Of a stretch of DNA of 64,000 nucleotides, positions 8,103-41,596 are shown piece by piece (the stretch's first letter is position 1; each line of letters starts with the position of its first letter). The stretch covers positions 116,255,134-116,319,133 of the forward strand of contig NC_135498.1 of NCBI RefSeq assembly GCF_052857255.1, written 5' to 3'. The stretch is from Amblyomma americanum. Lineage: Eukaryota; Arthropoda; Arachnida; Ixodida; Ixodidae. The position numbers and the translations under genes were made by a program. The notes beneath the pieces are model-generated. The model saw nothing but the letters and a program-made list of their open reading frames with translations. It had not been told where the DNA came from and ran no database searches.

Positions 8103-8235
8103 ATATATTTCGACCACCTGGGGATCTTTAACGTTCAGTGACATCTCACAGCACACGGGCGCCTTAGCGTTTTGCCCCCATAAAAACGCAGCCGCCGCGG
8201 TCGGGTTCGAACCCAGGAACTCCGGATCAGCAGCC
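8103..8235 (-). mobile_element. Partial Ruka-like SINE, minus strand
   Basis: On the minus strand this carries a B-box-like GGGTTCGAACCCGACC, GCGTTTTTATGG, AACGCTAAGGCGCCCG and the start of the family body. It stops at the CCACCTGG block, so its 3' half is missing. It abuts a second copy in the opposite orientation, making an inverted pair. Confidence 0.75.
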
Positions 8236-8500
8236 GGTTTCGAACCCAACCGCGGCGGCTGCGTTTTTATGGAGGCAAAACGCTAAGACGCCCGTGTGCT
8301 GTGAGATGTCAGTGCACGTTAAAGATCCCCAGGTGTTCGAAAATATTCCGGAGCCCTCCACTACAGCACCTCTTTCTTCCTTTCTTCTTTCACTCCCTCC
8401 TTTATCCCTTGTCTTAAGGCGCGGTTCAGGTGTCCAAAGATATATGAGACAGATACTTGGGCCATTTCCTTTCCTCGAAAAACCAATTAATAATTAATAA
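8236..8500 (+). mobile_element. Ruka-like SINE, plus strand
   Basis: Plus-strand copy that starts at the B-box region (TTTCGAACCCAACCGCGG) and continues through GATGTCAGTGCACGTTAAAG, CTCCTTTATCCC and a tail ending AACCAATTAATAATTAATAA. It lacks the A-box half. With 8103-8235 it forms arms of about 100 bp around a 40-bp centre. Confidence 0.75.
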
Positions 8501-14378: not shown

Positions 14379-14942
14379 GTCGCGCTAGCGTCACCAACTC
14401 TGCTCTTTATGTTGTCGCGCTCTAAGCCAAAGTTATACAATTAATGAGGGATAAAGTTAAGAATGAATAGGTGGAAACCTTCATTAGGCAGCTGACTTTG
14501 CAGTGCAGCATTTTACCGAATTATGTTTAGACCGAACCGGAGCGAGGGCGAGGCCACAATTTCGTGAGGTGCCGTCGGTGTACTGCTGGTTCACATTAGC
14601 GCGCCCAAAAGGTATATGGTACTGCTTTTTCGACGGAGCGTATCAAGTACTGTTTCGTGCTGTAGCAAATTATGCCTGAATGGGCTGCTATTTGTGTGAT
14701 GCTTGGCACAGTTCACTTCAAACTGCGCTTGTGACATGCGCTGCTGCATTCGTCTTCCTCGTCAGTCGTTTTTCTCGTGCTGTGTACATGAAACGTGGCT
14801 GCGCTATTGAGTTAGATTAAAAGCGCGTCTGGAATGTAAATAACACACTAAAGCGATAAACATCACCTGCCGTCGATGAGAAGAGACATCAACCGCCACC
14901 AACCCGCAACTGAAACAGCGGCAGTTCGAGTTTCAGTGTTTT
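14379..14942. other. No gene recognised
   Basis: Nothing recognised before the 5' end of Gypsy-1. Confidence 0.4.
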
Positions 14943-14946
14943 CGCG
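14943..14946. repeat. Gypsy-1 target duplication, left
   Basis: CGCG, matching 23296-23299. Confidence 0.8.
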
Positions 14947-15737
14947 TGTGGGAAGCCTGCTAGATTCCCGCCGTGGCGTCTGCGCGGCATCCCGCGTCGC
15001 TCTCTTTCCCTTTCTCCCGCCTCGGGCGGCGGAGAGACGGCTGGTGGCTAAGCGCTGTCATTCGGCCGCAGCTCCGCCCCCGGCTTCCCAAGGGCCTTTG
15101 CCATTGGTGACTTTTGGCGGGAATGCGGGACCCGTTTGGGGTGGTCGCGCGGCGCGCGACCGTCCGAGCGGGGCCCAGAGAGAGGGACCCCTCCGAGACA
15201 GCGTAAGGTGCGTACGTTACTGTTCGTCCGGGCCGGCCTCTGCCGTTCGGACCAGTTCATACTCGAGCTCGCCAGCGTGGGTCCTCGATCCGCCGCGGCT
15301 CGAGCCTGTCCAGGGGTCCAACGACCTCTGACAGGCGCACCTTGCGTTGACTGCCCACTCTCTCTCGCAAACGGCCCAACGGCCGACACGAGAGAGATCA
15401 CAGCACTGCCGCGGGGACAATCTCCTGCAGCGGCGTGCTAGCGGCGCGCATTACTCTTGTTGCCCCGAGCGCGCACCGGAGCCTTGCTCTGAGCGCGCCC
15501 GGGACGGGGTGACTGTTGAGTGTGTGTATGTACCACTGGAGGACGGCGTCAATAAACGTCTCCTTTGTGAACTTGGAGGCCTGTTTCTTGCGGCGAGCCC
15601 CTCTCCTCTCTGCAGAGGTTGAACGCCGCCGCAGCGGTGCCCCAGGGTGCGTGTGGTGACGGCTGATCGGGGCCCTTGGCTCGCTCGAAGCTCGAACCCG
15701 CGGTGGGTAGTGGCCTGTGCCTACTGAGAAACCCACA
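14947..15737 (+). repeat. Gypsy-1 5' LTR (791 bp)
   Basis: Bounded by TGTGGG and CCCACA. AATAAA lies at about 15551-15556, roughly 600 bp in, giving a likely U3-R / U5 division. It matches 22504-23295 nearly base for base. No convincing TATA box was seen in the GC-rich first part, so the promoter may be TATA-less. Confidence 0.95.
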
Positions 15738-15739
15738 AC

Positions 15740-15757
15740 TGGCGCCCAACGTGCTAA
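15740..15757 (+). promoter_or_regulatory. Gypsy-1 primer binding site
   Basis: TGGCGCCCAACGTGCTAA starts two bases after the 5' LTR. The leading TGG is the complement of a tRNA CCA end. I could not assign the tRNA. Confidence 0.8.
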
Positions 15758-15826
15758 GTCACTGGCTCTTAGCCTTTGATAGCACATTTGCCGAGCAGGT
15801 CGCCTTGACGATCACGCTTGCGCACC

Positions 15827-17303
15827 ATGTCTGCCACCCCCATCGGGGCACTCGGCAGCTACGTGTCGGCTCCCTTAGGAGTCGTAGCGTCCCTTTGATC
15901 AGTTGGCGGCTGTTTCTTCAAATAGCCAAACATCGTTGTTGGCCGCGGCCCCCATTGGGGCATACGGCGGTACAACCCCCAACGTCGATCACGCAGCTCC
16001 CATTGGAGCTGTATCGGGAGCACCCTGCGGTGCACCCGTCAGTCACATGCCTCCGCTGTGCGTGCTTTGCACCCAGTGCGAGAGGTGCGTGCGACGCTGC
16101 CGCAACCGCCCGTCCTGCACAGCAGCAGCCGTGTCCCGCGAGCAGTCAATTCTGCTCTGGGAACGGTGAGGCGCTGGCCCGGCTCCCTGTGGAAACCGCG
16201 CCGCTCATCGAACTGGGCGCCTTGCCTCCTGCGTTCGTGCAGCCCGCCCAAGCGTCCTCTGAGGCCGGGGCGCAGTCGCTGCTAAGGAGTGCTGCCCAGA
16301 TGATTCAGTCGCTCTCAGGGGCGGTTGAGACGCTTTTGGCCGCGCCGAAGGTGTCTCACCCCGCGGTCAAGTTGCCCATGCCAACATACCGCGGGTATGA
16401 TGACCTCCTCAGTGCCCAGGATTTTCTTGAGTCCCTCACCCATTACCAGAGAGCTATGGGTCTCACAGATCACGTTGTGCTTGCACACATCATCCCCGCA
16501 GCACAGCCTGACACCGCAGCTAGGTGGCATCGGCTTTCAGGCCACCGGGCAGAGACTCTCGAGGAGTTCCGTGCAGCATTCTTGCGCGAATTCCTGCCCG
16601 CTGACTATGAGCGTAGGATGCGGCGAGAGTTGGAGCTCCGTACACAGGCTCCGGATGAGTCACTCCTGGAGTACGTACGTGCGATGGAGGACCTTTTCTC
16701 AATCGCCGAGCCCAGAGCCTCGAACGAGGAACGTGTGGAAAGGACGATCAGGCAGGCACATCCGACTTTTTCGGCATACCTGCGCGGAGGCCGGTTCCGA
16801 GATTTTGAGGAGCTGGCCGCCCAGGCAAAGCGCATTCAAGGCGACATTCTCGCCGCGCGCGCCTATCGTCCGCCACCGCCGGCAAGCGAGGCCCTCGAGC
16901 CACGCTGTGCATGGTGAGGGGCCATGCCCCGACCCAACCGGCGACCACCCGCACACGCTGCCTCTGCAGCCGTTAGCGGGCAAAACGAAGTATGGGAGTT
17001 GAGCGAACGAGCTCTCGATCCCTACTCCTTCAGGAGACGGACAGCCCGCGCTGCACCGTTTTCTGGACCGCCGGCCGAGGGACGCCAAGCACCCCAACGC
17101 ACAGCGGAGGGGGAAGCCCGAACAGCCAGCCCTTTGGCCGTGCAACGGGCGGAACCAGGCAGGGAGAGGCGCCATTGTTCCGCGACCAAGCTCGCGGCGG
17201 TGTGCGCTGTTTCCGCTGTCAAGAGACGGGGTACTTAGCGAGAGAATGCCCCGTAACCAGGTCTCCTTTGAGGCAGGGAAATGGCGGCGCGGGTCGGTCG
17301 TAA
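15827..17303 (+). pseudogene. Gypsy-1 gag, frameshifted
   Basis: Structural protein of the virus-like particle. A plausible start is the ATG at 15827, 70 bases after the PBS; an earlier in-frame ATG at 15676 lies inside the LTR and is unlikely to be used. The N-terminal part changes frame (stop near 15898, continuing in the frame open at 15903). The capsid region occupies about 16150-16910, with RWHRLSGHRAETLEEFRAAF and the typical RRELELRTQAPDESLLEYV of retrotransposon gag. The nucleocapsid lies in yet another frame and ends in one zinc knuckle at 17208-17249, CFRCQETGYLAREC, where the conserved His is Tyr (TAC, 17232-17234). The frame closes at TAA 17301-17303, inside the frameshift hairpin. 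Confidence 0.85.
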
Positions 17304-17318
17304 AGGGACGACCGGCCC
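17276..17318 (+). promoter_or_regulatory. -1 programmed ribosomal frameshift signal at the gag-pol junction
   Basis: The heptamer GGGAAAT at 17276-17282 is phased in the nucleocapsid frame as caG GGA AAT, the canonical X XXY YYZ arrangement. After an 8-base spacer, GGGTCGGTCGT (17291-17301) pairs with ACGACCGGCCC (17308-17318) over 11 bp with one G-U pair and a six-base loop AAAGGG. The gag stop codon lies at the top of the hairpin. The pol frame is exactly -1 relative to the nucleocapsid frame. All of this is visible directly; function is inferred from known -1 frameshift sites. Confidence 0.75.
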
Positions 17319-18571
17319 AATCCTTGCTAATCCCCTCTGCGTACAGAGCAAGCTGCCTTGCTAATGCGCACGCGCCGTTTATTCCGGTCACCATTGCTGG
17401 CCGCGAATTTTTGGCGTTACTGGATACGGGAGCCACTGCCTCCTTGTTCGGTGAAGAGGTGTTGTCCCACTTGCAAAAGCACTCGGTGCGCTTGCCGGAC
17501 TGCCGTACGACATTCAACCTTGCGAAAGGCGTAGCCCATTCGGCTGGCGCCGCGAGGCTGACTGTCAGGTGGGGAGAGCGGACGAGACGCACGCGTTTCA
17601 TCCACCTCCCAGGGCTCAGTGTGCCCGTGATTCTCGGAAGGGACTTTCTCCTGAAAACCGGGATCGTGGTGGACATTGCGAATGGCGGCTATCGCGACGG
17701 ACCATTTTCCCAGCTGAAGCCGTTCATCTGCCCACCGGCGTCATTAACTGCCTGCGCAGTGAAGGCGTTCGGAGAGTGCCACGCTCAGCGACCAGGGCCA
17801 AGCCCTTGTGTCGAGCGTTCCGTCGTTCACGCTCTCCTTTGGGACCGAGCGGCGCGGTACGACCAGGCACCACATCCGCTGGCCGCCTTTGCGGTAATAT
17901 TGGATGACACTCAGAAGGCTCGTTTGACAGCACTGTTGCGTCAGTACGATGAGCTCTTCACGGATCAACCTGGCTGTACTAATTTAGTGAGCCACAAGAT
18001 CCACACCGGAGATGCGCTTCCTTTGAAGTGCAACCCCAGACCCGTCAGCCTTGCGAAAAGGCAGGTGATCGATGGGTTGCTGGATGAGATGCTGTCGGCG
18101 GACATTATCCGTCGCTCGTCCAGCGCTTGGGCGTCTCCGGTTGTGTTGGTGCCTAAGAAAGATGGCAGCCACCGGTTGTGTGTGGATTATCACCGTCTGA
18201 ATGCGCTGACTCGAAAGGATGCCTATCCGCTCCCGACGATCAGCTCAATCGTAGGTAACCTGGGCAGTGCGCGGTACTTTTCCACGCTAGATGCCTCCAA
18301 AGGTTACCTACAGGTCCAGATGGCGGACGCTGACCGGTCTAAGACCGCGTTCACGTGCCACAGAGGGCTGTTTGAGTTCACTCGCATGCCCTACGGTCTC
18401 TGCAATGGTCCTGCGACTTTTCAGAGGCTCATGGACCGCGTTCTAGGGGAAGCTAAATGGTCTCACGCCATGTGCTACCTGGACGATATCGTGATTTATT
18501 CACGAACCTTCGATGAGCACTTAGGCCACATTGCCGACGTGCTCGCGAGGGTACGGGCTGCTGGGATGACT
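17277..18571 (+). pseudogene. Gypsy-1 pol, part 1: protease and reverse transcriptase
   Basis: Open in the -1 frame from upstream of the frameshift site. The aspartic protease has LLDTGATASLF with the catalytic Asp codon at 17423 and later VILGRDFL. The RT domain has KKDGSHRLCVDYHRLN, KDAYPLPTI, FSTLDASKGYLQVQM and the active-site YLDD at 18476-18487 followed by IVIYSR, all as expected. The reading frame is lost near 18570, within the RT connection region, by a small indel; the continuation is in the frame of the next entry. Read from this frame, the remaining 75 bases give a nonsense tail to a stop at 18644. No catalytic residue is missing in this part. Confidence 0.9.
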
Positions 18572-19670
18572 GAATCCTGCGAAAGCCCAAATAGCGCGGA
18601 CCCGAGTTCAGTTGCTAGGGTTCACGCTGGGCGAGGGCTCCATTGAACCCGATGCGGACAAACTCCGAGCCATACTCGAGTTTCCCATGCCCAAGGACGT
18701 ACGCGGCCTCCGCCGTTTTCTGGGAATGGCCAATTTCTATCGGTCGTTCATCCCGTCCTGTGCCCGCGTGCAGGCACCCTTGACCAAGCTCTTGGGAAAG
18801 ACTGCCGCGTGGCGATGGGGGCCTGAGCAAGAGCGATCCTTTCGCCTCCTGTCTAGTGGCATTGCCGAGACAGCGCAGCTCAGGCTACCCGACCTGACCA
18901 GACAGTTCGTAGTCCAGACTGACGCGAGCGATCTGGGTTTAGGAGCAGTTCTCCTACAGGATTTCGATGGCGTGCTGCAGCCGCTGGCCTTTGCCAGCCG
19001 CTCCTTGCTGCCCTCGGAGAGGAATTACTCCGTGACCGAGAAGGAGTGCCTCGCCATCGTGTTTGCACTGCGGAAATTCGACGTCTACCTTGACGGGACG
19101 CAATTCGTGGTGCAAACAGACCACAGTGCGCTCAATTGGCTGATGCGGCTCCGCGAGCCTGCGGGTCGGCTGGTGCGCTGGGCTCTCCTGATACAGCATT
19201 ACGACTTTTCGGTGCAGTATCGAAAGGGGAGCACGAACGTGGTAGCTGACGCGCTATCCCGTGCCCCACTCGCCAGCGGCGCCTTGACGCCAGCAGACGG
19301 AGCGGGCGAAAAAGCGGACGAGCCGACGGGCGGCAAGGAGGGGGAGCCCGCAAACGGGCTAACCCATTCCGCTAACCAGCCAAGCAGCGCTTCGCAAAGT
19401 GGGCGAGAGGCAAAGCTCCACGTGAGCGCCTCGGAGACGCCGTCGCGAGCAGAAATTTTGGCTGCAAACCTGAAGGGGGACGAGACCAGGCCCCCCTCTG
19501 GGGTAACAGGAATCGTTTTCAGCCGGAAAGAGCTGCTGAAAGCCCAGCAAAATGACCCCATGTGTCGCGAGATGAGCGACGGTCTCAGGGAGACGGAGCG
19601 CCGGGACGCTACTTGTATTGTAGCGGGCGAGGGGGTGAAAGCCAGCGTGTGTCGCGGCGAGCCCCGGGGG
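18572..19670 (+). pseudogene. Gypsy-1 pol, part 2: RT thumb and RNase H
   Basis: Continues pol in a new frame. It begins with the RT thumb (LLGFTLGEG, FLGMANFYRSFIP) and goes on to RNase H with VVQTDASDLGLGAVL, YSVTEKECLAIVFALRKF and VQTDHSALNWL. The Asp, Glu and Asp of the RNase H active site are present. After RKGSTNVVADALSRAP comes a low-complexity linker rich in Ala, Gly and Glu. The frame ends near 19666-19672 at a run of five G, where a one-base change shifts the integrase into another frame. Homopolymer slippage during replication, or a sequencing error, could explain this break. Confidence 0.9.
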
Positions 19671-20950
19671 ATTCATATTTGCTGGGCCATGACGGGCTCG
19701 TGCTGAAATACATAGCCACCGATGATGAGTCCATTGACCCGTTCAAGGTGGTTATCCCCAAAAGTCTGAGAGGCGCACTGTTGCGATTTTCTCATGACGA
19801 ACCACTGGCCGGTCACCTGAGTGGCTCCAAAGTTTTTGCAAAACTGAGTCAATCGGTGACGTGGCCCGGCATGAAGCGTGACATTTTCCGCTATTGCAGT
19901 TCCTGCCATGTCTGTCAAGCGGTGAAGTCAAGGGGCGGCAAGCCGCCCGGAATGATGAAACCAATTGAGAGTGTGCGTCCGTGGCAGATGGCCACCTGCG
20001 ATCTGATGGGGCCTTTCAACAGGAGTAAGCAGGGGTTCATTCACCTGATGGTAGTAGCTGACCATTTTTCCAAATGGGTCGAGTTGTACCCGCTTCGGAA
20101 AGTGTCAGCACGAGCGGTGCTGGATAAACTCCAGGAAGTGTTCTGTCGGTTCGGCTTTCCGGAAAGACTGATCACGGACAATGCGTCCTATTTCACCGCT
20201 CGGGTGTTCGGTAACACGTGCCGTTCCTTCGGAATTGAGCACTACACCACTTCACCCTACCATCCCCCGTCTAACTTGACCGAGCGAATCAACCGAACGC
20301 TCAAGCCAATGCTGGCGGCCTTTGTCGAGTGTCAAAAGGACTGGGCAGACCATTTGAGCGAATTTGCGTTCGCCATTCGAACAGCTGAAAATCGCTCAAC
20401 TGGTTTCTCTCCCGCCTTCCTCAATTTCGGGAGGGAGCTGGCGAATCCGATGTCAAACGTCGTGCAGAGCCAGCTCGGGGATGAGAAGACGCGGGCAGAC
20501 TGCTCTGCTTATGCGTCGACGCTTCGGGACCGGCTTGGTCGGGCTCTCAACAGAGCAAGGCAGAGTTTGGCGGCAGCCAGAGCCCAACAGAAGGCTCAGT
20601 ATGACCGCAAGCACCGCAGCCTGACTTTTCAGGCGGGCGATCTTGTCCTGAAGCGCAACCACGTTCTTAGTGATGCGAGCAAGGGGTTCTCAGCCTCGCT
20701 CGCTCCTAAGTGGCTTGGTCCGTACCGAGTGGTCAGAGTCTGGTCGCCGCTCGCGTACCTGCTGGAGGATCCCCTTACGGGGAAAACCAGCCGTGCCCAC
20801 ATCGCAGACCTGAAGGCCTATGCGTCACGGTCTGACGAGTTTGCGTCGGTACCCATTGGTATCACAAGCAAGCGCAAAGGCACATCTGGTGCTGCGGAAC
20901 GCAACCGTACCGAGCACCGGTACAATCTGAGGCGACGGTCACTGATGTGA
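19671..20950 (+). pseudogene. Gypsy-1 pol, part 3: integrase
   Basis: The HHCC zinc domain is present (HDEPLAGHLS, then CSSCHVC). The catalytic core shows the DDE triad: Asp in TCDLMGPF (codon 20000), Asp in ITDNASYF (20177), and Glu in LTERINRTL (20282). Normally the Pro-His-containing block reads as an A/N-rich stretch before the Glu; here it is YHPPSNLTE. The C-terminal domain has a GPYRVVRVWSPLAYLL motif and ends with TGA at 20948-20950. The integrase itself has no internal stop, so this is the best preserved domain. It is not translatable as part of pol because of the upstream breaks. Confidence 0.92.
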
Positions 20951-22052
20951 TTGATGCCGGATGGCGGACTCTTCCGCAACCGAAGGCACGCAGCCTCAGC
21001 TATCTGGCGAGCTTTCTCGCCGGGCGCTACCCCAGGTGAAGCACGGCGGTTTCTTTCTTTTATTGTTTGCCGCATGCTCAGTTCCAGCCTTTTGCAGTTA
21101 TTTAGTCGTTTGTTTGTTTTAGTCAGTCTGTAGTATGATTTTGTTTCCAGTTTATTCGTTGCTTCTTCTAACGTTCCGAGATCTGTACATATGTAATATA
21201 CGTTTGCGTTGGCGTTCAATTTTTTTTAAACCAGACTTGTACATATGTAAACTTCAACCTACTCGCGATTGCATTTTTCTTGTAGCGCAGAGATGGCCTT
21301 CTTTTGTACAGCGCGCCTTCTTTTCATTTACGTTCTGACCCCACGGGTGCGGCCTTCCTCGCGAACACGGGACCGGCTGGTACGCGGAGGGGTCGGCGAA
21401 AGTCTCCCCTTCCGGCTGGGGAGTGGTTTGCTCGTTAAGGAGCGAGTGTCTCGCGGCATGGTTTTTGTGTGGCTATGGGGCGCTGAAGAGTGCGTCTGTG
21501 TGTCCTTTGACCCCTGCCACGGCGCCTCGGGACGATTCCGACAAGCGGGTCGTTCTCACTGATGAATGTCCCCTTCTGTGCCGGTGCGTGCCTGGGATTA
21601 TGTGCGTGTTCCCAAGATCAAAGGCAACGCCGAGAAGGGGGCAGGAAGGACAGCACCCTTTCCCGTGCGGGTCCTCTTCGGGATCGTCGAGCATCGTCGA
21701 CGTCCTCATGCTCAACTTTCACGACCTTGTGGAGGACATGGGACCGCCGTCAATAAATCGTCCACCGGGACCCTGAAGGCAGCAAAAGCGTGAGTTGGCC
21801 GCCGACAGGCCCAATGGGCCGCGCCACCGAACATTATGAGGCTGCAGGCCACCTGTCAGCTGGCCTTGTGTACAGGGTACAGTGTAGTTAGTTTTGTCTC
21901 CTTGAAACGTATGCAAGTGTTGTTTTTTTTCTGTTCTTGTTTGTTTGTATTTTGAGTTTATGGCTGGAACTGAATTGTGGTAGTTTTATATGGATTATTT
22001 TTTTATTTTTTTATTTTGCCGCATGCTTTCGCCGATGGGTAGGAGGGCATTT
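20951..22052 (+). other. Gypsy-1 long 3' non-coding region
   Basis: About 1.1 kb between integrase and the PPT without a convincing reading frame. GTACATATGTAA occurs twice, near 21185 and 21239. No env motif (signal peptide, furin site, membrane anchor) was seen. It may hold packaging or transport signals, or be the eroded site of a lost third gene. Confidence 0.5.
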
Positions 22053-22065
22053 AAGGAGAGGAGGA
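22053..22065 (+). promoter_or_regulatory. Gypsy-1 polypurine tract
   Basis: AAGGAGAGGAGGA, all purine, immediately upstream of the first 3' LTR start TGTGGG at 22066. Its last three bases GGA recur at 22501-22503 before the complete LTR. Confidence 0.85.
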
Positions 22066-22500
22066 TGTGGGAAGCCTGCTAGATTCCCGCCGTGGCGTCT
22101 GCGCGGCATCCCGCGTCGCTCTCTTTCCCTTTCTCCCGCCTCGGGCGGCGGAGAGACGGCTGGTGGCTAAGCGCTGTCATTCGGCCGCAGCTCCGTCCCC
22201 GGCTTCCCAAGGGCCTTTGCCATTGGTGACTATTGGCGGGAATTCGGGACTCGTTTGGGGTGGTCACGCGACGCGCGACCGTCCGAGCTTGGCCCAGAGA
22301 GAGGGACCCCTCCGAGACAGCGTAAGGTGCGTACGTTACTGTTCGTCCGGGCCGGCCTCTGCCGTTCGGACCAGTTCATACTCGAGCTCGCCAGCGTGGG
22401 TCCTCGATCCGCCGCGGCTCGAGCCTGTCCAGGGGTCCAACGACCTCTGACAGGCGCACCTTGCGTTGACTGCCCACTCTCTCTCGCAAACGGCCCAACG
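22066..22500 (+). repeat. Extra partial LTR (first 435 bp) before the 3' LTR
   Basis: Begins TGTGGGAAGCCTGC right after the PPT and follows the LTR to CGGCCCAACG, about LTR position 435, then stops; GGA and a full LTR follow. At early variable positions it agrees with the 5' LTR (ATTCCCGCC, GCGGCATCC) more than with the adjacent 3' LTR. It also has private differences (GCTCCGTCCCC, CTCGTTTGG). The break point and the join share GG. Confidence 0.9.
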
Positions 22501-22503
22501 GGA

Positions 22504-23295
22504 TGTGGGAAGCCTGCTAGATTCGCGCCGTGGCGTCTGCGCGTCATCCCGCGTCGCTCTCTTTCCCTTTCTCCCGCCTCGGGCGGCGGAGAGACGGCTG
22601 GTGGCTAAGCGCTGTCATTCGGCCGCAGCTCCGCCCCCGGCTTCCCAAGGGCCTTTGCCATTGGTGACTTTTGGCGGGAATTCGGGACCCGTTTGGGGTG
22701 GTCGCGCGGCGCACGACCGTCCGAGCGGGGCCCAGAGAGAGGGACCCCTCCGAGACAGCGTAAGGTGCGTACGTTACTGTTCGTCCGGGCCGGCCTCTGC
22801 CGTTCGGACCAGTTCATACTCGAGCTCGCCAGCGTGGGTCCTCGATCCGCCGCGGCTCGAGCCTGTCCAGCGGTCCAACGACCTCTGACAGGCGCACCTT
22901 GCGTTGACTGCCCACTCTCTCTCGCAAACGGCCCAATGGCCGACACGAGAGAGATCACAGCACTGCCACGGGGACAATCTCCTGCAGCGGCGTGCTAGCG
23001 GCGTGCATTTCTCTTGTTCCCCTGAGCGCGCACCGGAACCTTGCTCTGAGCGCGCCCCGGGACGGGGTGACTGTTGAGTGTGTGTATGTACCGCTGGAGG
23101 ACGGCGTCAATAAACGTCTCCTTTGTGAACTTGGAGGCCTGTTTCTTGCGGCGAGCCGCTCTCCTCTCTACAGAGGTTGAACGCCGCCACAGCGGTGCCC
23201 CAGGGTGCGTGTGGTGACCTCTGATCGGGGCCCTTGGCTCGCGCGAAGCTCGAACCCGCGGTGTGTAGTGGCCTGTGCCTACTGAGAAACCCACA
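22504..23295 (+). repeat. Gypsy-1 3' LTR (792 bp)
   Basis: TGTGGG to CCCACA, with AATAAA at about 23109-23114. It differs from the 5' LTR at about 20 sites and one single-base indel by my count. Confidence 0.95.
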
Positions 23296-23299
23296 CGCG
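23296..23299. repeat. Gypsy-1 target duplication, right
   Basis: CGCG, matching 14943-14946. Confidence 0.8.
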
Positions 23300-24141
23300 C
23301 CATTGCCTTTTCTTTGCAACAGGAAAATTTGTTGTTATGATGACCTAAACTCATCGTCATTCCACTACTTCCTCTAATTACGCTCGTAAGACAAGAACCA
23401 GATCCGAAAATAGTGTTTAATGCACGTACCCCTTTTCGGCGGCATGGTGAGACCTGTATGCCTGTTTACTTCGGTTTCTCTGAAATTGCAGGGTTCCCAA
23501 AACGATGCTCACATCTCTCGCGTTCAGGTTGCTTGATCCCTTCATACAACAGCAGATATTACACGAAAACAACGCAAATAACTGAGAATGCAGGCGCGAA
23601 AGACACAACTTTTTGCATTGAAATGTACAGCAGACCCAGCACTTCCGGGACATGCCGCCCAACTTCCGGTGGCTTCACTTGCGCCCACTTCAGAAAGCGG
23701 GAATGCGGCATCCAGTTCCCTAGTGGAGATCAGTGGCAAATACAGCAAGATTCTCTCTTAACTGCATCTGGACTTCCTTTGAGACATCATGATCGCTTTT
23801 GTTCTGACATATGTTCCCGTCTTTGGCATAGCCACGTGTGAAGAGCGATTGGAAATTCAGTCCCTGAGGAGGTCTCATTCACAAGACTTTGCCCTAATCT
23901 TCAAAACGCATGTCGAACAATGAGAGCCCGTACAGTGTTCCTATATGTCAGTATGCGAAAGTGCCCTTTTGCTCCTTGATTCTTGATGCGGTATTGTCAC
24001 GTCTGCCATGCCGTGGAAAAAACCGCCCTCACCTCGAGAATGTTTTCCAAAAATGTGGCTTAACTCCATTTCGAACATTATCTGATGGGAGCGTTGTGTC
24101 TATAATTATGCCTCAGCAGCCAAAAGTTTTATGTAAGAAAT
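23300..24141. other. No gene recognised
   Basis: Apart from the 23702-23750 repeat nothing is supported. I looked here for a 3' LTR of Gypsy-2 matching 30045-30344 and found none. Confidence 0.4.
23702..23750 (+). repeat. Inverted partner of 14001-14050
   Basis: Shares ATGCGGCAT and CCCTAGTGGAGATCAGTGG with the reverse complement of 14001-14050. Confidence 0.6.
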
Positions 24142-24798
24142 TTATGTAAGATGGACGTGGTACGGCTTCATCCGAGCGACGTGGACAACTTCAGAGGTTG
24201 GCTGTCTAGAAGAGCAAACTGTTCCTTGGGGGAGAACTTCGTATATAACTTCACCGAGCTGGCAGAGCACCTCGTAAGGGCCAAAGTATCTGCGTAGCAG
24301 CTTCTCAGAGCGTCCTCGCATGCGGATTGGGCTCCACACCCAGACTTGTTCGCCGGGCAGGTAACGCACATTTCGGTGGCGGAGGTTGTCGCGCCGAGCG
24401 TCGCGAACTTGCTGGTGCCGGATGCGCTGTCGAGCGAGTTGGCGGGCGGCCTCAGCGTAACGAAGAAATTTGGCAGCACCCATAACCGAGGGGCTAGCGC
24501 TAGCTGGAAGCAGCACTACATCCAGCATGGTTGTGGCTTCGCGACCATGTACTAAACGAAATGGAGTGAAGCCTGTCATTTCCTGGACCGCGGTATTATA
24601 GGCAAAGGTGACATAAGGGAGTATGGCGTCCCAGTTCCGGTGGTCCTCGTCGACATACATAGAAATCATGTCGGCGATCGTCTTGTTGAGCCGTTCGATG
24701 AGGCCGTTCGTTTTAGGGTGGTAAGCGGTTGTTTTGCGGTGACTGGTGCCGCTCAGGAGCATAACCTCCCGAGTAAGGGCCGAGGTGAACGCTGTTCC
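24142..24798 (-). pseudogene. Gypsy-2 integrase, C-terminal half
   Basis: Begins at the solo LTR junction with GTAFTS and continues GTSHRKTTAYHPKTNGLIER, which includes the catalytic Glu of the DDE triad (LIERLNKTI). It goes on with MSMYVDEDHRNWDAILPYV, FAYNTAVQEMTGFTPF and a C-terminal YFGPYEVLCQLGEVIYEV. It ends at a stop near 24145. This half is uninterrupted over 206 codons from the first Met. The partner half lies at 25555-26080. Confidence 0.9.
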
Positions 24799-24802
24799 CC
24801 TG
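24799..24802. repeat. Solo LTR target duplication, left
   Basis: CCTG, equal to 25551-25554. Confidence 0.85.
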
Positions 24803-25550
24803 TGATATGCTTGGGTATCGGAACCGAGATCTTCACCGTATGACGATGAACTCTGCAGACGACGGAGGGAAGCCTTCAGGAGGGTTGGTAAACATGAAGG
24901 TTTATTTACATATTTACAACAGAAGCAGGGAGACCAAAAGTCAGAGATGAAGTCCCGTGAAACCAGCCAAATTGCGGCTTAAATACAGTGGATATCCCCT
25001 AGGCACCTAGCTAGGGAACCGGTGGTTGATCAAGCGTCCAATGGGCAGACACACTCTTCATAGTCTCCGCCCTAACTCCGTGACCGCTCCACCCTCACAA
25101 ACCCCTGCACAGGCGATAAGGAATCATGGCGCCTTGAGGTCCTGGAATGCTGTTTCCGACGGGTTGACCAGGTGCATAAGGTCGCTGGCTTTGCAGGCGG
25201 TGATCCCCTCCATGGGAAAGATGCGTACTGACGGCCCCATGAATTCCAGAGGGTAAGATGAATCAGCCGCGTCCGCCCCCGCTTTGTCTGGCCGCGCAGG
25301 AGCAAATGAGCGAGGAGGGTCCGGTGCCTTTGTTCGGGTCTTTCTGCCGGTCCACGTGAGGGCGCAGTTCGGGAGAAATGCCGCATTCCATACTCCGGAC
25401 GAAGGAATTAGAGGCCTTTCGTCACAGCTCGCCGTCGCCAGGAGCCGTTCCTAATCCTCTTCTCAGGACGACAGCACCTTTGGTCAAACATAGTTCGATA
25501 GCGCTTGTCGGGCTCGTCTGTTCCCACTGTCGGGGCCTCCGATCACAACA
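24803..25550 (-). mobile_element. Solo LTR inserted in Gypsy-2 integrase (748 bp)
   Basis: On the plus strand it starts TGATATGCTTGG and ends TCACAACA; on the minus strand it runs TGTTGTGATC to GCATATCA. CCTG flanks it on both sides (24799-24802 and 25551-25554). Removing it and one CCTG rejoins the integrase codons without shift. On the minus strand there is TATTTAAG near 24985 and AATAAA near 24898-24903, so its transcription runs on the minus strand, as in its host. Its internal region was lost, presumably by LTR-LTR recombination. It is not obviously related to the LTRs of Gypsy-1 or Gypsy-3. Confidence 0.88.
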
Positions 25551-25554
25551 CCTG
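25551..25554. repeat. Solo LTR target duplication, right
   Basis: CCTG, equal to 24799-24802. Confidence 0.85.
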
Positions 25555-26080
25555 TCAGTTTAAACGATGGTGGGTGCACCATGATGAAACACAATGTTCT
25601 GAATGAAGTTCGCAATTTCGCCAGCTGTACCACGGGGAAGAGGTTTAGTCCCACACTATCGGCTGGGGTAGTCGGTGGCGACCACAATGTGGCGGTTATC
25701 CAGCGAGGCCTCCGGAAATGGGCCGAGTATGTCCATGCCGAGTTGGTGGAAGGGGACCTGAGGCGGATCAATAGGCTGGAGTAGGCCGGCTGGCTTAGTC
25801 GGCGGCGTCTTGGGACGCTGGCACTCGCGGCAAGTTCTTATTTAACGCTTCACAACTGCAGCAACCCTGGGGCAGTAATATTTTTGCCGTATTCGTGCCA
25901 AAGTTCGACAAAAACCCAGGTGACCAGAAGATGGGTCATCATGGCTCGCCTGCAGGACTTCGTCGCGAAGGGCCGTAGGCACGACGAGTAGATAGACAGC
26001 TTCTGTTGGACTGTAGTTTTTCTTATACAGGACGTCGTCACGTAAACAGAACGACGACCGCCCGCGCGAAAAGCTTCGCA
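25555..26080 (-). pseudogene. Gypsy-2 integrase, zinc domain and first half of the core
   Basis: The zinc domain reads SHDDPSSGHLGFCRTLARI with the two His; the CxxC pair follows in another frame. The core has a segment of the form PFHQLGMDILGPFPEA (first catalytic Asp), then IANFIQNIVFHHGAPT and an ACT GAC AGG end that gives the second catalytic Asp just before the solo LTR. At least two frame changes and a TAA in place of an Ile-like codon are visible near 25560. The continuation is at 24142-24798. Confidence 0.85.
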
Positions 26081-27620
26081 GTGGAAGCTGAGCGCTTCCT
26101 TCTAGATACTCAATGAGAGGCCGTAGTTCGTTGTCGTCCCTTTGGTGTTGAATGAGAATGGACGTGGAGATGGCGCGAAGAAAAAACGGAATCGTCGTCG
26201 GGGTCAGCTCGATTGTCCTCGACAGGAGCACGTAACAAACAGTCGGCATCACTGTGCTTCCTACCAGACTTATCGACGATGGTGACATCGAATTCCTGAA
26301 GTCGAAGGCTCCAGTGTGCAAGCCGTCCCGAGGGATCTTTGAGGTTCGCCAGCCAACACAGCGAGTGGTGGTCGCTGACGACCCTGAAAGGGCGGCGATA
26401 TAGGTACGGGCGAAATTTATTTACTGCCCACGCAATGGCCAGGCATTATTTTTAGGTGGTGGAATAGTTCGCCTCAGATCGTAACAGGGTGCGGTTTGTG
26501 TATGCGATTACGCGTTCGAGACTATCCCGCCTCTGCACAAGGACCGCACCGAGGCCTGTGTTGCTGGCGTCTGTGTGTAGTTCAGTGTCGGCTGACTCGT
26601 CGAAGTGTCCAAGGATGGGCGTACTTTGGAGACGTGTGCGGAGGTCCTCAAAGGCTTGCTGCTGCTCCAGGCCCAGGAAGAACGGTTAGGAATCTTTCGT
26701 GTGTCGGGTGAGGGGCTCAGCGATCTGGGAGTTCTGCGCAAAACGCCGATAATAGGTGCAGAGACCCAGAAAGCGGCGCACACTGCGCTTATGGATGGGT
26801 ACAGGAAAAGCTGCCACAGCAGCAGTCTTATCGGTGTCTGGGCTAACCCCTTTAGCGCTCACGATGTGGCCCAGAAACTTCAACTCTTCGAATGCGAAGT
26901 GACACTTTTCGGGCTTCATGGAAGGACCGGCCGAACAATTTGTTTCGAACACAGCGCGCAGGCGTCTCAGGGACTCTTCGAACGTGTCAACGAAGATGGC
27001 AACGTCATCGAAGTACACGAGACAGGACAGCCATTTGAGATCGGCAAAAACGGTGTCCATCATCCTCTGAAAGGTGCAAGGGCCGAGCACAGGCTGAAAA
27101 GGCGCACCCGGAATTCATAGAGACCGTCCGGTGTAATAAAGGCGGTCTTTTCCCGGTCGCATTCGTCCACCTCGATTTGCCAATAGCCGCCTCGTAAATC
27201 TAGCTACGAGAAGTACTTGGCGTGGCGCAGCCGTTATAGGGAGTCATCAATACGCTGGAGAGGATAAGCATCCTTTTTTGTGACTTTGTTTAAACGTCTG
27301 TAATCAATGCAGAATCGTAGGGTTCCATCTTTCTTTGCTACTAGAATAGGCGACGCCCACGGGCTCGTCGACGGCTGTATCACGTCGTCCTGGAGCATTT
27401 CATGAAAATGGCGGCGAATGGCATCGCGCTCCTTCGAAGAGATCTGGTAAGGCGGCTGACATAACGGCCGTTGGTTGGCGTCAACTATAATTCGGTGCTT
27501 TGTGAGTGGTGTCTGCCTGACCTTGGAGGTCGAGGCAAAACAGTCGCAGAAAGACTGGAGAACGCTTTCCACGCAGCGTTTCTTATTAGATGGTAGGTTT
27601 GGGTTCACGCCAGTTTTATG
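26081..27620 (-). pseudogene. Gypsy-2 reverse transcriptase and RNase H
   Basis: From the right: [14 protein letters not shown] and [39 protein letters not shown], then a stop near 27233 and a short damaged part (LDLRGGYWQIEVDE). Next come PCTFQRMMDTVF and VYFDDVAIFVDTFEESL with the active-site YFDD at 27004-27015, the thumb (FLGLCTYYRRFAQNSQI), and RNase H ([28 protein letters not shown]). The RNase H part runs in several frames with stops. All catalytic Asp residues of RT are still readable, so decay appears neutral. Confidence 0.88.
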
Positions 27621-27852
27621 GTTTGGTTTATGAGGGTTTAACGTCCCAAAGCGACCCAGGCTATGAGGGACGCCGTAGTGAAGGGCTCCGGAAATTTCGA
27701 CCACCTGGGGTTCTTTAACGTGCAGTGACATCGCACAGTACACGGGCCTCTAGAATTTCGCCTCCATCAAAATTCGATCGCCGCGGCCGGGATCGATCCC
27801 GCGTCTTTCGGGCCAGCAGCCGAGCGCCATAACCACTCAGCCACCGCGGCGC
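27621..27852 (-). mobile_element. Ruka-like SINE inserted in Gypsy-2 pol
   Basis: Minus-strand SINE with A-box-like GGTGGCTGAGTGGTTATGG, B-box-like GGGATCGATCCCGG, the GATGTCACTGCACGTTAAAG body and a CATAAACCAAACCATAAA tail. It is the same subfamily as 2894-3126 (both have the GCCCTTCACTACGGCG block). The plus-strand flanks show CAGTTTTATG at 27611-27620 and CAGTTTTTATG at 27860-27870, possibly an imperfect target duplication. It lies between the protease and the RT domain. Confidence 0.85.
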
Positions 27853-28179
27853 CTTCAGTCAGTTTTTATGAGATTGGTCGGTTTCCCCACTGATGCCGGG
27901 GCTCCGGACAAAGCGTGCTGTCTCGAGAATTCGCTGAGTTCCTCGAAATACGCAATAGCTGTTCTGCCAGGCAAACACCAAGAGTTCGGTTCGCCCTTTG
28001 TTCAGTTCAACAATTCCTTGAGCAACACTGGCTTGCCGACCAAGGAGCAGCGACATGTTGGTTTCAGCGATGCCACGAATTTTGGTGCTGTGATCACAAT
28101 CTACAGTAACAAACATGCTGGATCTTGACGGGAACAAAACGTGGTCGTCACAGACGCATAACAGCCCTGCGTGGCTCGG

Positions 28180-28545
28180 CATCGTCGTCTACAGGGTCTT
28201 GGGTGGAAAACGACACGATTAGCTCCTGGAGGTTGATAACGGCACCATACTCCTGAAGGAAATCGAAACCGAGTATGAGGTCTTTGGAGCACTCGGGTAA
28301 CAAACCAAAGCAACCAGGGAAAGTAACACCGCGCATCTTGATTCGCGAAGTGCAAACACCGATCGGTGTTGCCACGTGGCCAGCAGCTGTCCGGATCTGC
28401 GGCCCAGACCAAGGAGTCAGAACATTCCTCAAGGCCGTGGCCTACTGTCTGCTCATTACAGAAAAATCGACGCCGGTATCCACGAGTGCGGTAACATCGT
28501 GGTTGTTGGCGGATACCGGAACTACCGCGGAGACCAGTCGGTCGC
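28180..28545 (-). pseudogene. Gypsy-2 aspartic protease
   Basis: The catalytic triad reads ALVDTGVDFSV, with DTG at 28472-28480. The conserved C-terminal ILGFDFLQEYGAVINL follows in the frame ending near 28150. The intervening part changes frame. Located between the gag zinc knuckle and RT, as expected for Ty3/Gypsy. From about 27853 to 28180 there is a further coding-like minus-strand stretch (KGRTELLVFAWQNSYCV) that links protease to RT. Confidence 0.8.
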
Positions 28546-28662
28546 AGCGCATTGTCGAGGTCGTCGGGTCAGGTCGTCGGTCGGAGCGTCGCGGCGAATC
28601 GTCGCGTGGAGGCTCTTGACTCGGTCCAGTAGCGGCAGCCCTACTCCCGGAGGACGCCGTCT

Positions 28663-29061
28663 TCAGTTTTCCCGACGTGGGGACGGACCTCTGAACTGGC
28701 CAGAGGATGACGGGCGGCCGGGCGAAGAGAACCGCCTTGGGGATGGCGATCGGGATTGGCGTCGCTGCGAGATCGAAGATTGCACGTTATCAGTCAAGTA
28801 CTGTTCGATATCCCGTGGTCTTTCACCGTTGCGTGGTCGAGGTGCGTCAGGTGAAAACCCCCTTAAGCCCATCCTGCGGTAGGGGAAGTGGCGGAGGATG
28901 TGGCCGGGCTCTCCGCAGTGATAACAGAGCGGCCGATTGTTTGGCGTACGCCAAACGTGCGCTTTGCTCACGGGGGGCCTGAACTCCTGCGGCACGGAGG
29001 GTACTGTTGCGATTGGATCCTGCAGGTATGGCACAGGAGCACCGGGGTAAAAGGCTCGCAT
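28663..29061 (-). pseudogene. Gypsy-2 gag, nucleocapsid end
   Basis: Contains one zinc knuckle at 28885-28926, CYHCGEPGHILRHF, in which the last Cys is Phe (TTC). Upstream is a Pro-rich stretch (FYPGAPVPYLQDPI) and downstream a basic Arg/Ser/Pro-rich tail typical of nucleocapsids (SQRRQSRSPSPRRFSSPGRP). The frame joins the capsid region at 29092 after a break. Loss of the fourth zinc ligand would prevent normal RNA binding. Confidence 0.82.
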
Positions 29062-29091
29062 CGCTGGCCCGGGACTTCGTATCGCCTCGCT

Positions 29092-30015
29092 TTACGTCAT
29101 AACGAAGGTCGCCGGGTGTGGAACTGGGGGTGGCTGCACAACTCGTCGGATTTCTTCGCGGACCACGTCCGTTACGGCAGCGACGCTGACCTGTGGAGCT
29201 TCAAAGCGAAGTTTCGCCAGTTCCTCGCGCACAAGGCTTCTTACAAGATCCCGAAGCTCCTTGGCGGGTAGCGACGTGGACGTGTACTGGGAAGCGGCTG
29301 CTACAGTAGCCTGACGTCCGTAGTGAGCGCCCCGTTCCTGCAGAGAGCGCTCGATACCCATTGCCTCCTTGGTGAAGTCGGACACTGTTCGTGGCGGGAC
29401 ACGGACCAGTCCAGCAAACAGCTGCTCTTTTACGCCAAGCATTAAGTGGCGTACCTTCTGCGCTTCGGGCATAGCACAGTAGGCCCGATTGAACAGTCGC
29501 ATCATGTCCTCGATGAACATCGCGACGCCCTCGTTCGGCTGCTTTGATCTCGAGCGCAGGGCGATTTGAGCCTTCTCGTTTCTTTGGCTGCTGGTAAATG
29601 TCGCTAGTAGCTCTCGACCAAAAGCCTCCCAGGTGGTAAAGGAAGCTTCGTGGTTGACAAACCACGTTTAGGCCGAGTCCTGCAGCGCAAAGTAGACGTT
29701 GCGTAGCTTGCGCTCGCCGTCCCACTCATTGAAACCCGCCACTCTGTCAAAGCTTGACAACCAGTCCTTGACGTCATCGATCCTGTCCCCGTGGAACGGC
29801 GGCGGCGACCGAGGTCCGTGAAGGACGAATGGCGGGGCACTCCCGGAATGCTGAGTTGTCTGGCTAGCCGCGGTGGATATAATGGCCCTTACCGGCGAGG
29901 TCAGTTGGCCGAACTCGGGTTGTAGGCCTCGCAGGTGGCGGCTCGCCTTGTGGACTGTTGTTGTAGCCACGCGTTGAGAGCTGATGTCAAAGGTGTCCTC
30001 GAGGTCAGCGTACAT
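29092..30015 (-). pseudogene. Gypsy-2 gag, matrix and capsid part
   Basis: The likely start is the ATG at 30013-30015, giving MYADLEDTFDISSQRVATTT. An LHGPRSPPPFHGDRIDDVKD motif leads into DWLSSFDRVAGFNEWDGERK and then a stop near 29671 and a frame break (about 29530-29670). The second part has FIEDMMRLFNRAYCAMPEAQ and KVRHLMLGVKEQLFAGLV, as in retrotransposon gag C-terminal capsid domains. The start lies about 30 bases from the candidate 5' LTR end, a short leader. Confidence 0.82.
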
Positions 30016-34289: not shown

Positions 34290-34320
34290 GTAGAGGGGGC
34301 TAATCTAATACATTGTCCCC

Positions 34321-36138
34321 ATGCAACCTACCAGGATAGAGAAAATCGTGAACAGAGACACGTATCCGGACCTCACGATAGGCAAATATCTCGCAGACTT
34401 AAGCTGGATGAACACCAGACAAGATTTGGGAAGTGACCGTTATAACATAACTTCCAAAATCACCATTGGTAATCTCAAACCCAAACCCAGAAAAAACAAA
34501 ATCACCGACTGGGACAAACTCAAGACGATCCGCGACCAAAATCAGGAACCGATCACACACCTAGAACAGTGTACACAAAACCTCCTATGGAATGTGGGAA
34601 AGACCAATAAAGCACGAGTATATGATCTGGGCGTAAATACGATTGAACGCCGGCTTACACACAAGTGGGAGGCAAGGCAAAGCCTAGAAAAAAGATGGCT
34701 TAAGCAAAGATACAACAAAAAGCTCAGAAAAAAAGATATCCGCACTCACGGAAGAAATTCAACACCACTCCGCCGAACTCTGGAGACAGCAGTAAAACCA
34801 ATTTCTGCGAAAAAATAAATGGCAATCTCGATACGGGGGAGACGTGGAATCTCCTGCGGCACCTTATCGACCCGGAATTGAACAAAGCTGTGACTCAAAA
34901 AAATTACCAAAATTAAAAAAAAACCCAGCCACGGATCAAAATAACATAAACACTCTACAGCAGATATACTTCTGCGCAACCCGAGAGACGAAGTCCCTAT
35001 CCGATTATAAAGGGCAACCTAACCCCATCCTGGACGCTGACATAACAATAGCGGAAATAAGAGCAGCCCTCGTTAGGATACGCACGACATCCGCTCCAGG
35101 AGAGGAGGGCATTAACAATAATAAGACACTCAGAAACCTAGACGACACTTCCATCACAGCCCTCACGGACGTTGCGAATGAGTGTTGGAGGGAGGGAAAG
35201 ATCCCAGCGTCTTTGAAACATGCCATCGTTAAATTCATTCCAAAACCAGGCAAAAAGCTCGTGCTCGAGAACCTCAGCCCGAGTTCGCTTACTTCTTGCA
35301 TAGGAAAACTGATAGAGCACGCCATACTAGACAGACTGCAGTCCTACATGCACAAATGAAATTTATTTCCGAACACTATGGTCGGCTTTAGACCGCATTT
35401 ATCAACACAGGATACAATGCTCACACTAGCAAACGAAGTCCTATCTCAGGAGCAAGAAAGGAGCACAAGAGAAATACTAGCTCTAGATTTAACCGGAGGA
35501 TCTGATAAGGTCAAACTCAAAACAATCCTAGATTCTCTTTCACCATTGAACGCAGGCGAAAGAACACTTAAGTACTTCGAGGACTTTCTCTCCGATAGAA
35601 CGGCTACAATTCAAATTAGCACACTCAAATCCGACACCTTCAGTTTAAGAGGCAGAGGAACGCCGCAAGGATCGGTCCTCTCCCCCTTCTTATTTAATAT
35701 AACCCTGATCAAAATGGCACACGTACTCGCCAAAATCCCAGACCTAGAACACTGTGCGCGGACGATATCACCCTTTGGACAACCAAGGGGAGTATCGGCA
35801 CTATACAAGATACGCTACAACAGGCGGCAGATGTAGTACTAGAGGAGGCAAAAGCCGCGGGTCTTGCGTGTTCCCTCAAAAAGCTGAAGTCCTATGCCGA
35901 AAGCGTCAAAGAAAGAATAAAGCGCATGATATCAAAGTGTACGAGTGAGGGGCAGCCATCCCAGAAGTGGAAACACAATGAATCTTGGGAATGCTGATAC
36001 AGTAAAAAAAACGGCACAGCAATTCAGAAACTGAGAAATACCGTCAACCAAATCTCCCTCCTCATCAGACGCATCGCGAATAGGCTAGGAGTTAAAAAAG
36101 CCGAGACACGGAAACTAATCAAAGCCTTCGTTCTTAGC
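34321..36138 (+). pseudogene. LINE-A ORF2: endonuclease end and reverse transcriptase
   Basis: The start has PTRIEKIVNRDTYPDLTI and NTRQDLGSDRYNI, the C-terminal motif of APE endonucleases. A long linker with KITDWDKL and RLTHKWEARQ follows. RT begins with PILDADITIAEIRAALVRI, TSAPGEEGINN, WREGKIPASLKHAIVKFIPK. After a stop (35357-35359) comes MVGFRPHLSTQDTML, ALDLTGGSDKVKL, and GRGTPQGSVLSPFLFNITL. At the active site a frame change occurs exactly at the Tyr codon; Ala-Asp-Asp is readable from 35758. The thumb ends in LIKAFVLS at the solo LTR. Confidence 0.85.
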
Positions 36139-36142
36139 TAGC
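36139..36142. repeat. Solo LTR target duplication, left
   Basis: TAGC, equal to 37011-37014. Confidence 0.75.
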
Positions 36143-37010
36143 TGTGATGACCGCCCATAATGCGCAGGTCCACACGGGACGGAGAGGCAAAGAGACACCG
36201 TATGGGTCAGTTTAAACAAACAGATATATTCAATAATTACACATGATTAAGATTTATAAATCAGAGGCTGGGGCGTCCGAGCTTACGTGCCGACGACTTC
36301 ATGGGGACGATGGAGCGGCTCCGGGGTTGAGCTCGAACGGTTGCTGGCAGAAGCTGCACGCCGTCGGGCTTCGGCGCTGAAGGCCCTCTTGGCGAACGAT
36401 GTCGTCCTGAGCGTCCTGCTTCCGTACTGCTTGTCGATTTTTATATCCTCTTCTCCACACTCCCTAGGGTGAGGACGCCCACGCCGGAGGGGAAGGAGGG
36501 GGGGCTAGGGCTTTCACTTGGGCGCACAAACATACAACCGCACTTATGGTCTCGCCCCCCTCACGTGTTGAGTCCGAGGGAAAGAAGGTTGTCTTCGAGG
36601 TAGCGCATAGCGTCGGCTGTGGTAAGGCGCGCTCTGGCCCGCTGACAGTTCCCGCGGGTCACCGGCCTCCATTCTCCATCAATCAACTGACACTCGCTCC
36701 TCAAGGTAAGGCGCGCTCTGGCCCACTGACAGTTCCCGCGGGTTATCGGCCGGGAAAGTGGTCCCTTGTCCTGGGATGTGCTCGGGAGGCCTCCCCTGGA
36801 ACCGCCACGGCAATTGGGGAGGATAAAGCCCGTTTCCCCGCGGCGCCGGCGGCGGGTCCGGTTGGGTCTGGTTGGGCTTAAACCCCTTCGTTCTGGTCGT
36901 CACTCTCAAAGAGCATGGCTGGGTAATTGATGATGCCGCTGTCATCTGGGTCTCCGTCTACGCCGCGCCGTCGAACGCGGAACCTCGTAGCACACACAAG
37001 GAACGTCACA
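36143..37010 (-). mobile_element. Solo LTR inserted in LINE-A (868 bp)
   Basis: Starts TGTGATGACCGC and ends GGAACGTCACA, with TAGC on both sides (36139-36142 and 37011-37014). TGTGA and TCACA are inverted ends. On the minus strand GATATAAAAATCG near 36434-36444 looks like a TATA box, suggesting minus-strand transcription. It contains an internal duplication of about 46 bp (36620-36666 and 36704-36750). Removing it rejoins the LINE-A thumb region. Confidence 0.85.
36620..36750. repeat. Internal direct repeat in the solo LTR
   Basis: GGTAAGGCGCGCTCTGGCCC, then CTGACAGTTCCCGCGGGT, then CGGCC, occurs twice with a period of about 84 bp. Confidence 0.8.
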
Positions 37011-37014
37011 TAGC
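37011..37014. repeat. Solo LTR target duplication, right
   Basis: TAGC, equal to 36139-36142. Confidence 0.75.
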
Positions 37015-37856
37015 CATCTACTCTACAGCATACGTCACCCTGAGTGAGAGAAAGAGGTGACCTGGATTCTCTAATTGGACGATTCTATAAAATTGCACAC
37101 ATCTCTCGTCATACCCCAAATGAAAAACTACTAGAGCTAGGAATGCATAACATCTTAGCGGAAATGACGGAATAACACCTCACCGAAAAATAGGAGATTA
37201 TCAGGCACTTAAACGGGACGTTTCATTCAAAAGAAGGCAGGAAAACAAGAAAGAATCGGTGCACATACCTTGCCAATTCCACGACACGTGCACGAACACT
37301 TAATAGTCAATCCTCTGCCCAAAAACATGCATCCACACTATGATACGGACAGAAAAAAGGCTAGGGCACAAAAACTTCACGAAAGATTTTCATTCCAGAA
37401 AGACACGCCACATGTGGACGTGGCAGAGCATGCGAACAGAGACGCCTTTTCCCTGGCAGTTGTCGATCATCGAGGGTCTCCCCTAATATCGGCGACAATA
37501 GATGAAACAAAGTTTCTGGAGCTGGCCGAAGTAGCTGGCATAGCTTTTGCCATTACCTCCACCACTGCCAAATACATTCGCAATTCGAAATTTTTCCAAA
37601 GGAAGGGCGAACTCCGCAGCCATCAAAATATTAAAAAAATCTTCAATACCCGCCAGATCATATTGATCTGGGTTACCGCCCATACGGGCTATCCTGGAGA
37701 CGTGGTGGCGCACCAATTTGCCCGAGGATTCGTAGTTAACCGGGAGGTGCGGCACCCTGAGCTCAGGGCGGCCAAGGATCGAGTGACGACCTACTAAGAA
37801 ATTACTACCCACTTCAAGAAAGAAAGACAAATCTTGCCAGAACCACATTGAGAGAG
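37015..37856 (+). pseudogene. LINE-A ORF2: thumb end and RNase H
   Basis: Resumes with YSTAYVTLSERKR, then in another frame DSLIGRFYKIAHISRHTPNE and KLLELGMHNILAEMTE before a stop. RNase H follows from 37270: VDVAEHANRDAFSLAV with the first Asp, ELAEVAGIAFAI with the Glu, and WVTAHTGYPGDVVAHQFAR near the end. The middle catalytic Asp, normally in a DS-K/Q-A motif, is replaced by STTAKY. The tail RAAKDRVTTY ends in a stop, then THFKKERQILPEPH, the usual conserved end of this LINE type. Confidence 0.8.
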
Positions 37857-41590: not shown

Positions 41591-41596
41591 TCTGTT

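Follow-up and report, generated by a model that had tools for sequence, protein, structure and literature searches.

How is pol expressed from a Ty3/Gypsy (Metaviridae) long terminal repeat (LTR) retrotransposon of the tick Amblyomma americanum in which gag and pol lie in different reading frames? We have analyzed this question in a window of 64,000 nucleotides (RefSeq assembly GCF_052857255.1, contig NC_135498.1, positions 116,255,134 to 116,319,133 of the forward strand; coordinates below are those of the window, and the element lies on its plus strand). The junction between the two genes almost certainly carries a programmed -1 frameshift cassette, at which we infer slippage; its sequence, phase, predicted structure and conservation over copies and families are described here.

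The slippery heptamer, GGGAAAT (17276-17282), is read from the sequence and is also found in family copies. The zero frame of gag divides it as G_GGA_AAT: the codons are CAG GGA AAT, in the same frame as the zinc knuckle at 17208-17249, and the nucleocapsid part of gag is open in this frame in the window copy from 16977 to 17303. A spacer of 8 nt (17283-17290), a length that matches the family loci compared, is followed by a stem-loop at 17291-17318. Its arms (17291-17301 and 17308-17318) form 11 contiguous pairs, one of them G-U, around a 6-nt loop (17302-17307). The gag stop TAA (17301-17303) lies within the stem-loop, and the -1 frame is open from 17003 to 18646 and contains the protease (17372-17662) and reverse transcriptase (RT, 18149-18571) domains. 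The locus therefore has an X_XXY_YYZ heptamer in the zero frame inside the gag/pol overlap, pol in -1 and, by prediction, a stable structure within the range of ~5-9 nt downstream of the heptamer. The first-pass annotation, made from the letters of the window alone, had described a heptamer in the slippery phase of the nucleocapsid frame, an 8-base spacer, an 11-bp GC-rich hairpin holding the gag stop and a pol frame open in -1, and each of these was recovered at the positions given. The hairpin agrees with the predicted folds: the z score is -2.78 for 55 nt, with 1 of 200 shuffles equally good, and -4.51 for 221 nt, and every pair of the stem has a predicted probability of at least 0.87.

The best reading is that the cassette acts in working members of the family. 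Ribosomes translating gag would arrive at G_GGA_AAT, where the hairpin 8 nt downstream would cause a pause. A minority would slip back by one base, the P site codon changing from GGA to GGG and the A site codon from AAT to AAA, and would continue through pol to yield Gag-Pol; the remaining ribosomes would terminate at the TAA within the hairpin and yield Gag. Pausing, slippage and low efficiency are proposed here by analogy with established frameshifting biology.

Copies of the window family, F1, were sought in the 2.56-Gb genome. The 26-nt signal is matched with at most 3 mismatches at 132 places, of which 100 were listed. Heptamers could be compared in 57 of 58 loci (L057 has no alignment over the site) and were GGGAAAT in 32, GGGAAAC in 19 and GGGAAAA in 2, with the first six bases broken in 4. 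Twenty of the 57 loci have a gag frame of at least 490 codons up to the heptamer; all 20 keep the first six heptamer bases unchanged and form 11 pairs, and their seventh base is T in 12, C in 7 and A in 1. Among the other 37 copies, which include that of the window, the heptamer is broken in 4 and the stem has 10 pairs in 4. GGGAAAC falls in two separate clades of an F1 tree built with FastTree from 51 copies (midpoint-rooted, no support values printed). Since many of these loci (L001-L008 and L039-L058) had been drawn using the signal itself and are hence biased, the draw was repeated with a 56-nt upstream anchor that lies outside the signal. This anchor matched 117 places, and 97 of the 100 listed keep XXXYYYZ. 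The exact signal is present in 59 of the 100 and 24 have one mismatch, which in 3 of them affects the first six heptamer bases; the remaining 17, read in sets of 12 and 5, all keep XXXYYYZ. Seven of the 12, all on C1, have a common stem change that opens one pair. F1 copies form clusters on C1 at ~4.2-5.6 Mb and 41.2-42.0 Mb, and GGGAAAC is found in those read from 4.2-5.4 Mb and in all seven copies with the shared stem change. Segmental duplication, and not transposition, may account for the spread of these C1 clusters.

The same layout was found in other gag-pol families of this genome. A protein (P0012) that is 51% identical to the protease-RT part of the window element over 52% of it gave, as a query, 214 genome matches, from which 40 short junction stretches were read (32 of family F2 and 8 of F3). 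Two more gag protein queries yielded F4 (6 loci), F5 (16 loci) and one extra F2 locus. In all five families the heptamer is in phase, 6-9 nt separate it from a GC-rich stem, and the stop falls inside the stem-loop. The spacer is 8 nt with a TAA at +25 in F1, 7 nt with a TGA at +22 in both F2 and F3, 9 nt with a TGA at +25 in F4, and 6 nt with a TAA at +22 in F5. Undisturbed F2-F5 copies in which scoring is possible have GGGAAAC in knuckle phase and protease in -1. The heptamer in knuckle phase together with pol in -1 was seen in 15 of 33 F2, 6 of 8 F3, 2 of 6 F4 and 8 of 16 F5 loci; loci outside this class have a knuckle or protease motif that is unscorable, pol in frame 0 or +1, or no heptamer, and these classes overlap. 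A third gag query added 16 junction stretches. Thirteen are F3 copies, 11 of them with GGGAAAC; L150 has GGGAAAC as well, L152 is without an intact heptamer and the L151 stretch does not include the junction. The pol frame of F2 opens 12 nt upstream of the heptamer in 19 of 32 loci, which leaves an overlap of 37 nt, and the shift must therefore fall within ~37 nt. The annotation had proposed that heptamer and spacer length should be conserved in other copies of the family; this check was run, and both copies and families support its reading of the site as a -1 frameshift signal in a tick Ty3/Gypsy element.

Compensatory stem changes, which had also been expected, were found between F1 and its sister family F4, and also among F4 copies, and are limited to these. 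The F1 and F4 stems align in register through the codon frame. One pair that is T-A in the window copy is G-C in all five F4 copies compared, and a G-C pair of the window copy is A-T in two F4 copies; three further pairs show one-sided differences in some or all of the copies. Within F4, one pair is broken in L113 and two in L116 (L111, which has a longer loop, was left out of these counts). The 5' stem arm GGTCGG is common to F1 and F4, with one G/A site in F4, and the arm GCCGCCGG is common to F2, F3 and F5. Over 50 nt from the start of the spacer, the z scores against shuffles are -2.78 for the window copy and -2.98 for F2.

A further line of evidence comes from gag proteins, at the protein level; the DNA of junctions was read from A. 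americanum. Species-named gag relatives were all from hard ticks (112 matches, and 120 listed of 129 in a second search), in searches that scored only candidates sharing most words. Of the 112 proteins, 53 were set aside for want of a full CCHC match. Gly-Asn follows the knuckle in 57 of the 59 tick gag proteins with full CCHC, and lies at most 9 residues from the end in 44 of 51 distinct tails. It is followed by 5 residues in 35 of these tails, 6 in 8 and 1 in 1, and a stop at +22 or +25, the positions seen in F1-F5 DNA, is therefore implied for 43 of the 44. Gly-Asn is followed directly by G, E or A in each of the 44 tails, residues whose codons all begin with G. Five of the seven other tails have Gly-Asn and a longer tail (P0129, P0136, P0138, P0139 and P0197), and Gly-Asn is missing in two (P0123 and P0198).

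Could such a junction arise by accident, heptamer and stem coinciding in a dead element? When the 99-codon overlap and its tail were shuffled by codon 20,000 times, an in-phase heptamer appeared in 11.4% of shuffles, and the heptamer alone is thus weak evidence. A heptamer with a stem of at least 9 bp appeared in 0.08% of them and one with a stem of at least 11 bp in 0.005% (1 of 20,000), in line with the annotation's claim that heptamer, phase, spacing and stem were unlikely to fit jointly by chance. Among the 497 slippery heptamers on both strands of the window, that of the signal ranks first in downstream fold energy; a longer perfect stem, of 12 bp, follows one of the 496 others, but none has a lower fold energy. 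As the layout also recurs in five families, we regard coincidence as wildly improbable. Selection on the protein offers another account of the conserved motif, in which nucleocapsid function, and not slipping, maintains Gly-Asn and the basic tail. In keeping with this, Gly, Asn and a later Arg are invariant in an alignment of 15 gag sequences with 39-61% identity to the first row. However, a linker of variable length (4 to 14 residues) separates Gly-Asn from the knuckle, and the codons are always NNG GGA AAC in the representatives shown of the five families, a uniformity that is indicative only because these were chosen as heptamer carriers; glycine codons in one F1 gag are GGC (12), GGA (10), GGG (9) and GGT (6). 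We consider this account very improbable.

Alternatively, the heptamer may be incidental and pol translated from an AUG downstream of the gag stop, by re-initiation or internal initiation. In F3 (L077) and F5 (L120) a Met codon of the pol frame does lie a short way beyond the slip site, that of F5 sharing bases with the gag stop (TAATG). No such Met occurs between the slip site and the protease DTG in F1 (window copy and L012) or F4 (L112), or in F2 (L059 and L072) within the stretch read, and under re-initiation the heptamer would not stay in phase across families, which makes this route very improbable as the general explanation; in F3 and F5 it is possible. Another alternative retains the frameshift and concerns its stimulator, which could be an H-type pseudoknot or a larger fold rather than a plain hairpin. 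Downstream partners for the loop were examined in F1 and F3. The F3 loop is complementary to downstream TGCTCA and CAGCG (TGAGCA/TGCTCA and CGCTG/CAGCG), for example in L077 and L137-L149, and over 19 copies the pairing holds in 108 of 114 cells for the 6-bp part and 87 of 95 cells for the 5-bp part. In F1 the candidate pairs the loop with CCCT (17333-17336); it has just 4 bp, and a change of 17305 from G to C in 3 of 38 copies would break the pairing. None of the candidate pairs shows a two-sided change, and overall a pseudoknot or larger fold appears rather unlikely. An F1 pseudoknot with TCCTT (17321-17325) was dropped, as a matter of judgement, because it would leave only 2 nt to span the 11-bp stem.

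Along with the pol-frame Met codons in F3 and F5, several observations weigh against the frameshift reading. The heptamer is lost in 6 of 33 F2, 1 of 8 F3, 0 of 6 F4 and 2 of 16 F5 loci, and pol is in frame 0 or +1 in 6 of 33 F2, 1 of 6 F4 and 2 of 16 F5 loci. No two-sided stem change was found within F2 (25 copies), F3 (19) or F5 (12, with L127 and L132 left out), and the representatives of F3 (z scores of -1.28 and -0.94) and F4 (-1.8) fold only modestly better than shuffles. Conservation within F1 is only partly informative because its copies are young, with a mean root-to-tip divergence of 0.021, and we judge the family too young for such conservation alone to prove selection. Lastly, the annotation had named related copies with gag and pol in one frame as the case that would speak against it. 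Of 101 gag matches, the three having the longest open frames were read. In L118 and L119, gag continues into protease without a change of frame; in each, an indel within the zinc knuckle brings this about and destroys the knuckle, and the heptamer persists out of phase. In the third, L117, a deletion joins gag to integrase. All three look like derived single copies, and a family with fused frames was not found among those read. L118 (G000:C1:167051382-167051982, within an open frame of 1715 amino acids) and L119 (G000:C9:141573460-141574060) are themselves F1 copies.

The copy in the window is a decayed one. Its 5' LTR (14947-15737) is preceded by CGCG (14943-14946), and its 3' LTR (22504-23295), which is 97.3% identical to the 5' LTR over 792 columns, is followed by CGCG (23296-23299). 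A primer binding site (15740-15753), presumably tRNA-Lys-like, and a polypurine tract (22053-22065) were recognized from the sequence. Between the LTRs the domain order is protease, RT, RNase H and integrase, as in Ty3/Gypsy elements. The Retrotrans_gag domain (16519-16731) is in an open frame at 15667-16917 that differs from the nucleocapsid frame; gag switches frame near the TGA at 16915-16917. Pol is broken into three open frames, the second and third of which carry RNase H (18570-19706) and integrase (19556-20950). In the CCHC knuckle the histidine codon is altered: position 17232 is T in the window copy only, C in 54 of 56 rows and a gap in one. The annotation had stressed that the signal survives in a copy with broken gag and pol. 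This is true but is weak evidence, as divergence in the family is low; because of the mean of 0.021, an unchanged 43-nt stretch is expected by chance, on our arithmetic, in ~40% of copies. The signal is intact here by recent descent.

Immediately upstream of the full 3' LTR, a 436-nt LTR piece (22066-22501) matches the beginning of the 5' LTR with 98% identity, as would result from partial duplication of the 3' LTR. An Rfam scan of 14900-23400 gave two matches only, both far below gathering scores and judged to be chance, and scans of a genome contig set and a viral contig set revealed no relatives. By eye, open frames elsewhere in the window, at 24142-29667 on the minus strand, resemble pieces of another Ty3/Gypsy element (integrase, RT and gag-like), those on both strands at 34309-42656 resemble pieces of non-LTR retrotransposons (RT and endonuclease), and a plus-strand open frame of 310 amino acids at 52993-53925 combines a protease-like stretch with two zinc-knuckle-like motifs in a single frame. 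An inverted repeat at 8108-8342 has arms of 107 nt that are 93% complementary, with 21 nt between them.

Frameshifting by -1 is a common route to pol expression in animal LTR elements: in a 2003 survey, 28 of 51 have pol in -1, many with well-placed heptamers (PMC5009743). These and the tick element have in common pol in -1 and a classical heptanucleotide at the end of gag; the hosts surveyed are mostly Drosophila, and the accessible part of that source names no tick element. G_GGA_AAC is among the most shifty heptamers in mammalian systems (PMC5009743). The retroviral gag-pro/pol sites with G_GGA_AAC are of the same heptamer type, whereas the heptamer ends in AAT in most F1 copies read and in AAC in the others, and the host ribosomes differ. 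Nine CsRn1-like elements of Anopheles have a -1 overlap and others share one frame; on the definition in the accessible part of that paper, the clade has a CHCC gag motif (PMC2582038), in contrast to the CCHC of unbroken gag frames in the tick element, which, by this motif, would place it outside. Ty3/Gypsy elements of Ixodes scapularis have two open reading frames, and resemble the present one in these and in other general features compared (CCHC gag, TG..CA LTRs and a 4-bp duplication); the main text of that report, as far as accessible, does not contain the word 'frameshift' (PMC4748124). A literature search, thin in its coverage of subscription papers, found no report of such a signal in ticks among the papers listed. 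The mechanism is already well known, and the tick signal is a new instance of it.

The five families may belong to a hard-tick gag-pol clade that shares a single recoding cassette. The gag stop, at +22 or +25 in the stem, would be a constant component of the stimulator, while the stem itself would have changed between families both in sequence and in type of fold (plain or bulged hairpin, perhaps a pseudoknot). We offer this tentatively, as possible though not the likelier outcome. If it is true, the position of the stop in the hairpin would be selected, coupling termination to slipping. As predicted from sequence, these junctions offer a clear example of -1 frameshifting used to express gag-pol in ticks. 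The cassette occurs in five families of a single genome, and six tick genera (Ixodes, Haemaphysalis, Dermacentor, Rhipicephalus, Hyalomma and Amblyomma) supply gag proteins for comparison. Gene annotation is prone to split or mis-join genes of this kind, and the cassettes are a natural series for asking which stem features tick ribosomes respond to.
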